From Allomyces macrogynus ATCC 38327 (Eukaryota; Blastocladiomycota; Blastocladiomycetes; Blastocladiales; Blastocladiaceae): 64,000 nt of DNA. Made by a program: the position numbers and the translations under genes. Every line of letters starts with the position of its first letter. The stretch's first letter is position 1. Of the stretch, positions 55,423-57,163 are shown in pieces. The stretch is taken from positions 1,464,553 through 1,528,552 of the forward strand of contig GG745329.1 of assembly GCA_000151295.1 (NCBI GenBank). The letters are read 5' to 3'. The notes below the pieces were generated by a model. It was given only the letters and a program-made list of their open reading frames with translations. It did no database searches and was not told the DNA's origin.

Positions 55423-56317
55423 TTAGTGGTGCGACGCGGCGGGACGGCCAAAGTGCGGCGACGCCTCGGCCTCGCGCTGCTCGTCCCACTTCTCGGTCTA
55501 TTGGAAGCATTCGCTCGTGAGTCTTCTCTCCGCGCCGAAGACCGAAAGAGAGGCGACACGCACCCACATGGGCGGGCACAGGCTCTTGTAGGCCTTCTGG
55601 AACTGCTTGCACGGCGCAAAGTCCTCACCCTTGGCCTCGACACACTATCAAACCGAGAGCAGAGCGCGTGCGTGAGTCGTCGAGGCCTTCGCCGCCGGTG
55701 AACTGGCAACACTCGACGCGAGCGCGACGTACCTTGAAGTAGTCGACGTAGTTCTGCCTGTCAAAGCAGAACCGAGGTCAACGGTACGCCGTCGAGCACG
55801 GAGTGAGCACGTCAGATACGGCGCGAAAAAAAAAAAACGGCGAAGACAGCCTTTACGGTCGCATGAATGGTCAAGGCGTCTCGACATACCAGCTAAACAT
55901 AGAACAAGATCCCGGTCAGTGAAAGTTCGAAGCACACCGCTGCCAACGAGCACGGCAAATAGAAATCGCGCACGCACCAGTGCTTGGTCTGGTTGGTGTT
56001 GGGGAAGCGGGCGTCTGCAAAACCATAGTTACGGACAGGGGACGTCACGTCAGGGGGCAAGCAAGTCGACACAACCAGCGCTCTGGGTTCGAGCTCATAC
56101 CGAAGCCGACGGTCTCACTGCACGTTCAGGACCGGAGCAATCCAGCGCGTCAGTGACTCCATTCTCGAGGCGGATTCAAGGGAGTGGTCACCCGGTGCCG
56201 CGCGCCATTCAACACGTCGCGGCCATGGAGAGCAGCGGCGCTGTTGTTGGCTGCGGCTTCGCGGCGGCGGCGCGGGCGGGCGGGTCGGCGTGGTACATAC
56301 ACCTTGAAGTCCGACAT
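55423..56317 (-). CDS. COX12: Cytochrome c oxidase subunit VIb (COX12/COX6B), seven exons including a 3-nt micro-exon
   Basis: Intermembrane-space subunit of complex IV at the dimer interface near the cytochrome c site. Seven exons (56301-56317, 56101-56117, 55978-56014, 55890-55892, 55733-55757, 55564-55644, 55423-55497) sum to 255 nt, exactly 84 residues plus stop; yeast Cox12 has 83. Blocks: MSDFK, ETVGFDARFPNTNQTKHC, WQNYVDYFKC, AKGEDFAPC, KQFQKAYKSLCPPMW and EKWDEQR. The twin-Cys helices are C-x9-C (Cys24 to Cys34) and C-x10-C, both disulfide-bonded in the family and imported by the MIA40 route. Exon 4 is the single triplet ctg. It supplies the last base of Cys24 and the first two of Trp25; without it the frame survives but Cys24 is lost. 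Introns are 183, 86, 85, 132, 88 and 66 nt. It is divergent from the small membrane protein gene, 321 bp away. Confidence 0.92.
55890..55892 (-). other. COX12: Three-nucleotide micro-exon of COX12
   Basis: On the minus strand the local sequence is ctatgtttag, ctg, gtatgtcgag: a complete acceptor, three exonic bases and a complete donor. A CTGAC branch-site match lies about 25 nt before the acceptor. It joins cactg (exon 3) to gcagaac (exon 5), producing KHCWQNY, the invariant start of the first CX9C helix. Confidence 0.85.
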
Positions 56318-56638: not shown

Positions 56639-57163
56639 ATGGGCGACCATGACCCCCCGGCCGCGTCTCGCGGCGCCGAAATGGCGCGGCCCGACCAGCC
56701 CTGGCTCGTGCGCTGGTTTGCGCGCCTCGTCGTGAACGGCATCATGCGCGCGCTCGGCCCGCTGCTCTTTGCCACCTCCAACGGGCTCGAACTCAACCGC
56801 GTCGCCTCGCTGCGGTCGGCAGGCGCTTTTATGTTCACGTTCGCCTACTGGAACAACCAAGGTGCATGGGGGCCGAGTCCCCCACGCGATCCCATCGCAA
56901 CCTCTGCTAATTTTTGGTTTGCGGTCAACGTAGACACCGACAGCTGGTTCTACTACATCCGCGCCATCATTGAGGCCCCGCTCCTCGCCATCCTGTTTGC
57001 GCTGCTCTACCTCGGCCTGCGTTGGCCAATCGAGTTTTTTGCGCGCCCACTGACCAAGCTGGTCGTGGCCGCGACCGACTCGGTCGTGCTCACTGGCAAT
57101 GCCGTGGCGAGTACTCTACTGCGCACGCACGTCGGCATTGCGCCCGTGATTCCCTCGTCTTGA
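56639..57163 (+). CDS. Small uncharacterised membrane protein (about 150 aa)
   Basis: Two exons, 56639-56861 and 56934-57163, join in phase 1 across a 72-nt intron to give 150 residues. The start has a good context (cgccATGG) and a hydrophilic lead (MGDHDPPAASRGAEMARPD). A moderately hydrophobic amphipathic stretch (WLVRWFARLVVNGIMRALGP) is followed by AGAFMFTFAYWNNQDTD and then a clear membrane helix (IIEAPLLAILFALLYLGLRW). The C-terminus (ATDSVVLTGNAVASTLLRTH) could be a second, weaker helix or an amphipathic segment. I recognise no family. It shares a promoter region with COX12, which hints at, but does not show, a mitochondrial or organellar role. Confidence 0.65.
   Translation: MGDHDPPAASRGAEMARPDQPWLVRWFARLVVNGIMRALGPLLFATSNGLELNRVASLRSAGAFMFTFAYWNNQGAWGPSPPRDPIATSANFWFAVNVDTDSWFYYIRAIIEAPLLAILFALLYLGLRWPIEFFARPLTKLVVAATDSVVLTGNAVASTLLRTHVGIAPVIPSS

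Follow-up and report, generated by a model that had tools for sequence, protein, structure and literature searches.

A predicted three-nucleotide exon completes the first CX9C cysteine of COX12 in the early-diverging fungus Allomyces macrogynus

The window analysed here is a stretch of 64,000 nucleotides from the blastocladiomycete Allomyces macrogynus ATCC 38327 (contig GG745329.1). Its minus strand carries, from position 56317 to 55423, a gene for COX12, the COX6B subunit of complex IV, predicted to consist of seven exons that sum to 255 nt, or 84 codons plus the stop codon (Table 1). These coordinates and this sum had been proposed in a first-pass annotation and were reproduced here; the spliced product of 84 amino acids is MSDFKVETVGFDARFPNTNQTKHCWQNYVDYFKCVEAKGEDFAPCKQFQKAYKSLCPPMWTEKWDEQREAEASPHFGRPAASHH. 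Introns 1 to 6 measure 183, 86, 85, 132, 88 and 66 nt, and all six are of the GT-AG type. Exons 3 and 5 are separated by a gap of 220 nt containing gtttag-CTG-gtatgt, and the CACTG end of exon 3, the GCAGAAC start of exon 5, the triplet CTG with its splice sites and the upstream CTGAC were all found as the annotation had described them, with 23 nt between the A of that motif and the exon. The triplet is thus flanked by a canonical acceptor and a canonical donor, together with a branch motif, and at 3 nt it falls under the definition of a microexon as an exon of at most 30 nt (PMC7821500, PMC8042270).

Table 1. Coordinates of the predicted COX12 exons and of the introns that flank the CTG exon, numbered along the window.
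Feature	Position	Strand	Length	Details
COX12 exon 1	56301..56317	-	17 nt	MSDFK plus two bases, phase 2 donor; same donor implied by A. arbusculus model P0007
COX12 exon 2	56101..56117	-	17 nt	protein aligned gap-free with Catenaria P0002
COX12 exon 3	55978..56014	-	37 nt	CACTG end; donor score 5.66, 60th percentile
COX12 intron 3	55893..55977	-	85 nt	gtgcgt...gtttag; CTGAC branch-like motif, A at 55916
COX12 exon 4, predicted microexon CTG	55890..55892	-	3 nt	last base of Cys24 codon and first two of Trp25 codon
COX12 intron 4	55758..55889	-	132 nt	gtatgt...tgacag; CTGAC and CTCAC motifs
COX12 exon 5	55733..55757	-	25 nt	GCAGAAC start; P0007 joins exon 1 to exon 5 as KV-QNY
COX12 exon 6	55564..55644	-	81 nt	
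COX12 exon 7	55423..55497	-	75 nt	including stop

The high intron number of this small gene is an oddity in itself: none of the 86 genes predicted in 264 kb comes near COX12, which has 23.5 introns per kb of coding sequence, the next highest density being 8.7 and the mean 1.42. On the plus strand a predicted two-exon gene (56639-57163) begins 321 bases away from the start codon of COX12 and runs in the opposite direction, so that the two genes may share a promoter region.

The spliced product contains a COX6B domain with a Pfam score of 85.7 bits (cut-off 26), and the solved structure that it matches best is a Cox12 (E 1.7e-34). COX12 is described as carrying a single CX9C and a single CX10C motif, whose structural disulfides are paired (PMC7909247), and the product has both, C24-x9-C34 and C45-x10-C56, with C24 depending on the microexon. 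When exon 3 was joined directly to exon 5 the translation was KHWQ; with CTG between them it was KHCWQ and CX9C was present, the joined codons TG/C and TG/G encoding Cys24-Trp25, which bears out the proposal that the 3-nt exon supplies the first cysteine of the pair. Removal of the exon 4 residue lowered the Pfam score by 13.1 bits to 72.6, still far above the cut-off.

Among the best 120 of 515 homologues, 119 have a cysteine followed by W, F or Y at the place of Cys24. In the 108 of these that matched a search pattern the residue after the cysteine was W in 90, F in 15 and Y in 3, and in 11 further homologues, for which the N-terminal part of the pattern was missed, HCWQ was read from the printed sequence. 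The sole exception is the model from Allomyces arbusculus (P0007), 98% identical over exons 5-7, which is without that stretch. The nearest proteins among the matches listed come from Catenaria anguillulae (83% identity over the whole length) and Blastocladiella britannica (77%). No second COX12 copy was found in the 54-Mb genome by DNA and protein search, in which the best candidates were scored. A second COX6B match, on contig C29 (L001 1426-1851), was rejected as a COX12 copy; it is a COA6-like gene in which a single exon holds the cysteine-motif region, and the only other COX6B-family match reported genome-wide.

The first-pass annotation had allowed for a different junction that might supply the cysteine. 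All GT/GC-AG structures spanning exons 3 to 5 in full, no intron being shorter than 40 nt, were enumerated. The motif FDARFP...C-x9-C was restored by 0 of 169 one-intron structures and by 2 of 2,592 two-intron structures, and the CTG exon was the only one that did so with good splice sites. The second solution, a 7-nt exon CTGGTAT, was rejected, having a poor donor (GTCGAG, score -2.64) and changing Trp-Gln to Trp-Tyr. With splice rules dropped altogether, CX9C was restored by just one of 34,716 single deletions, a GT...GA intron that would give KHCRQNY and so keep the cysteine but replace Trp with Arg. Although unique among the deletions, this intron was also rejected: GA is not a normal splice acceptor, and W, F or Y follows the cysteine in 119/119 homologues that have the stretch (best 120 of 515). 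We give it the lowest probability of all the readings considered.

Splice sites were scored with an unsupervised model from a gene finder trained on 264 kb (200 kb plus the window), with the COX12 locus left out and no use of homology; the 3,221 N of the 200 kb were treated as A, and the window contained none. Training yielded 87 genes and 218 introns, of which 89 were classed as confident (both neighbouring exons well scored, length at most 200 nt); within that length limit their median is about 75 nt and their 5-95% range 61-140 nt. Relative to these 89 introns the CTG exon has an average acceptor (4.77 nats, 56th percentile) and an average donor (5.34 nats, 55th percentile), and the two are the top internal sites within the 220-nt gap. 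Among 1,942 AGNNNGT sites on both strands of the 264 kb, only the CTG exon itself reached both its acceptor and its donor score; by summed score it ranked second, one other site being higher. It was also alone among 12 YAGNNNGTRYGT sites in having a CTNAC motif 8-45 nt upstream. The sequence of the exon, its uniqueness and the quality of its splice sites are matters of direct observation.

These values bear on the reading in which there is no microexon and exon 3 is joined straight to exon 5, giving a COX12 without its first cysteine (KHWQNY). The outer splice sites are both good and the join is in frame; moreover, a single intron of 220 nt would be no strong anomaly, given that intron 1 has 183 nt and that 9 of 221 predicted introns have at least 220 nt. 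However, such a protein would stand alone against 119 of the best 120 of 515 homologues, and there would be no explanation for a CTG that has a canonical acceptor and donor and a branch motif, making this reading very improbable.

Chance occurrence of the site was estimated from dinucleotide shuffles of the gap. AGCTGGT appeared in 1,037 of 200,000 shuffles (0.52%), and the extended site YAGCTGGT[AG][CT]G[TA] in 22 of 200,000 (0.011%), about 1 in 10,000. An assembly or sequencing artefact, in which either exon 3 or exon 5 is missing a triplet and the intronic AGCTGGT stands there by chance, would require an exact in-frame triplet loss in addition to this roughly 1 in 10,000 chance site. The window has no N, and exon 5 appears to begin at the same base in the A. 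arbusculus model; an artefact of this kind is scarcely credible.

When tiny exons were allowed, the gene finder, untrained on this locus and without homology, gave exactly the seven COX12 exons at intron penalties of -10 and -9. At the strictest penalty, -11, the CTG exon was not called and a truncated four-exon false gene starting from 55900 was predicted, which still used the donor of the exon and which resembles the A. arbusculus model with its jump from exon 1 to exon 5. At -10 no other exon of 3 nt was called among the 166 internal exons, those of at most 15 nt measuring 3, 7, 10, 11 and 14 nt; at -9 nine of 184 internal exons had at most 15 nt, one of them 3 nt. Since the penalties were set by hand, this result is support rather than proof. 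Elsewhere in the genome, a 7-nt internal exon was called by the gene finder at C74:1383705-1385152 (L018-L019), in a gene whose protein looks WD-repeat-like by eye.

From these observations we infer that exon 4 of COX12 is very probably a genuine 3-nt microexon, with a transcript that would include it constitutively. Splice sites that are average, and the best in the gap, would fit constitutive inclusion. The first-pass annotation had instead cast the exon as an on/off switch. The coding consequence on which that idea was built holds, in that skipping of exon 4 leaves an in-frame protein of 83 amino acids without Cys24, whereas retention of intron 3 or intron 4 brings an early stop codon, but no sign of regulated skipping was seen. 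Regulation of very small exons has precedents in the glucose-dependent microexon switch described in Trichoderma (PMC11121469) and in the 3-nt exon of Drosophila troponin T, reported to be skipped in some larval muscles (PMC8042270). Here, however, the splice sites are not weak, no complete-domain homologue among the best 120 of 515 is without the cysteine, and an isoform lacking it would lose one structural disulfide. A regulated switch between Cys24 and Cys-less forms, through which splicing would control complex IV assembly or MIA40 import, is accordingly judged very unlikely, and more doubtful still is the idea that inclusion of the triplet is regulated over the Allomyces life cycle and tunes complex IV from zoospore to hypha via the first cysteine of a disulfide-relay substrate. 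The 83-amino-acid form, where it occurs, would more likely be a splicing error than a designed product.

In genomes with short introns, splice sites are likely to be recognised across the intron. With a median of about 75 nt, the introns of this genome are short enough for the spliceosome to recognise each of them as a unit, and because introns 3 and 4 each have complete signals, their sequential removal is possible. Under the constitutive model the two introns would be taken out one after the other, each via its own ordinary sites, and the CTG exon would not need to be defined from both sides simultaneously. The CTG coincides with the three exonic positions (-3 to -1) of the intron 4 U1 site, and this site would therefore be unchanged after removal of intron 3.

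The A. arbusculus model reads MSDFKV-QNYVDYFKC, and exon 1 (GT end) joined to exon 5 (GCAG start) yields GTG CAG, that is VQ; as judged from the protein, the end of exon 1 and the start of exon 5 thus appear at the same bases in another assembly, whose longest contig has 980,400 bases, compared with 2,383,898 for the contig analysed here. Exon 4 is not visible in this public model, in which exon 1 is followed directly by exon 5. When the protein encoded by exons 5-7 was used as a query, 21 matches were returned, among which only P0007 was named Allomyces. Four of 12 additional proteins from that search, all public or metagenomic models, break exactly at the Cys codon, are without the cysteine and resume at x-FQNY, the residue before FQNY being Ser in P0128, P0129 and P0132 and Pro in P0123; three of these proteins carry the names of agaric genera (Asterophora, Pleurotus and Termitomyces). 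Ser-Phe would correspond to AG/C TTC, an intron end read through, which points to a phase-2 intron inside the Cys codon (TG/C) in agaric fungi. This would be the position of COX12 intron 3, a hint drawn from broken gene models, and short exons have possibly been missed at the Cys codon in these four proteins too. The position of intron 3 may then be the older one, and intron 4, 3 nt further on, a later addition that created the microexon, which probably formed as two phase-2 introns ended up only 3 nt from each other. Origin by duplication of one intron was rejected, as introns 3 and 4 are dissimilar (local score 18, reached by 15.6% of 500 shuffles).

Ultra-short exons are already known, and what is new is a probable case in COX12 of an early-diverging fungus. 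The first-pass annotation had placed 3 nt at the known lower limit of exon size, a view made outdated by the 1-nt exons reported for Arabidopsis APC11, where the exon is constitutive (PMC4674806), and for Fusarium CYP621A P450 genes, where it is described with 20 orthologues and RNA reads (PMC12940212). The Fusarium exon resembles that of COX12 in being fungal, in having canonical AG and GT flanks and in having been revealed by a conserved motif (PKG there) that cannot be built without the exon (PMC12940212). In contrast, it has 1 nt rather than 3 and its skipping breaks the frame, whereas skipping is in frame here; it is also backed by its orthologues and reads, whereas the COX12 exon is predicted from genomic sequence. 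In plants, 1-nt exons are reported for APC11 and VPS55, along with widespread misannotation of microexons (PMC8831610); these too are ultra-short exons of conserved genes that annotation missed, but unlike the COX12 exon they have been demonstrated by RT-PCR, reads and reporter assays.

Closer in size is the 3-bp micro-exon of Drosophila homothorax, likewise a single triplet, although it is described as alternative, overlaps a 48-bp exon and belongs to an animal developmental gene (PMC7392893). The 4-bp exon of MPC1, the mitochondrial pyruvate carrier, is a constitutive microexon, as proposed for COX12, and its gene likewise encodes a mitochondrial protein, but its length is not a multiple of three (PMC9929638). 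Phanerochaete P450 microexons are fungal too but longer, the shortest being given as 6 bp (PMC1184071). In the titles and abstract openings of the papers listed by searches for fungal microexons and for 3-nt exons, no fungal 3-nt exon was found, which does not prove absence; what one fungal paper calls a '3-bp exon' is three bases within a longer exon 2 (PMC8379801).

If transcribed as predicted, the COX12 exon would place an early-diverging branch of the fungi among the lineages in which exons of 1-5 nt occur, and would provide a core respiratory gene in which one conserved residue depends on a 3-nt exon. Exons this small are uncommon yet documented, and automated annotation can overlook them; because omission of a triplet leaves the reading frame intact, a conserved residue can drop out of a gene model unnoticed. 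COX12 exon 4 offers a small, testable case of how an exon is spliced when its length does not allow recognition as a unit.
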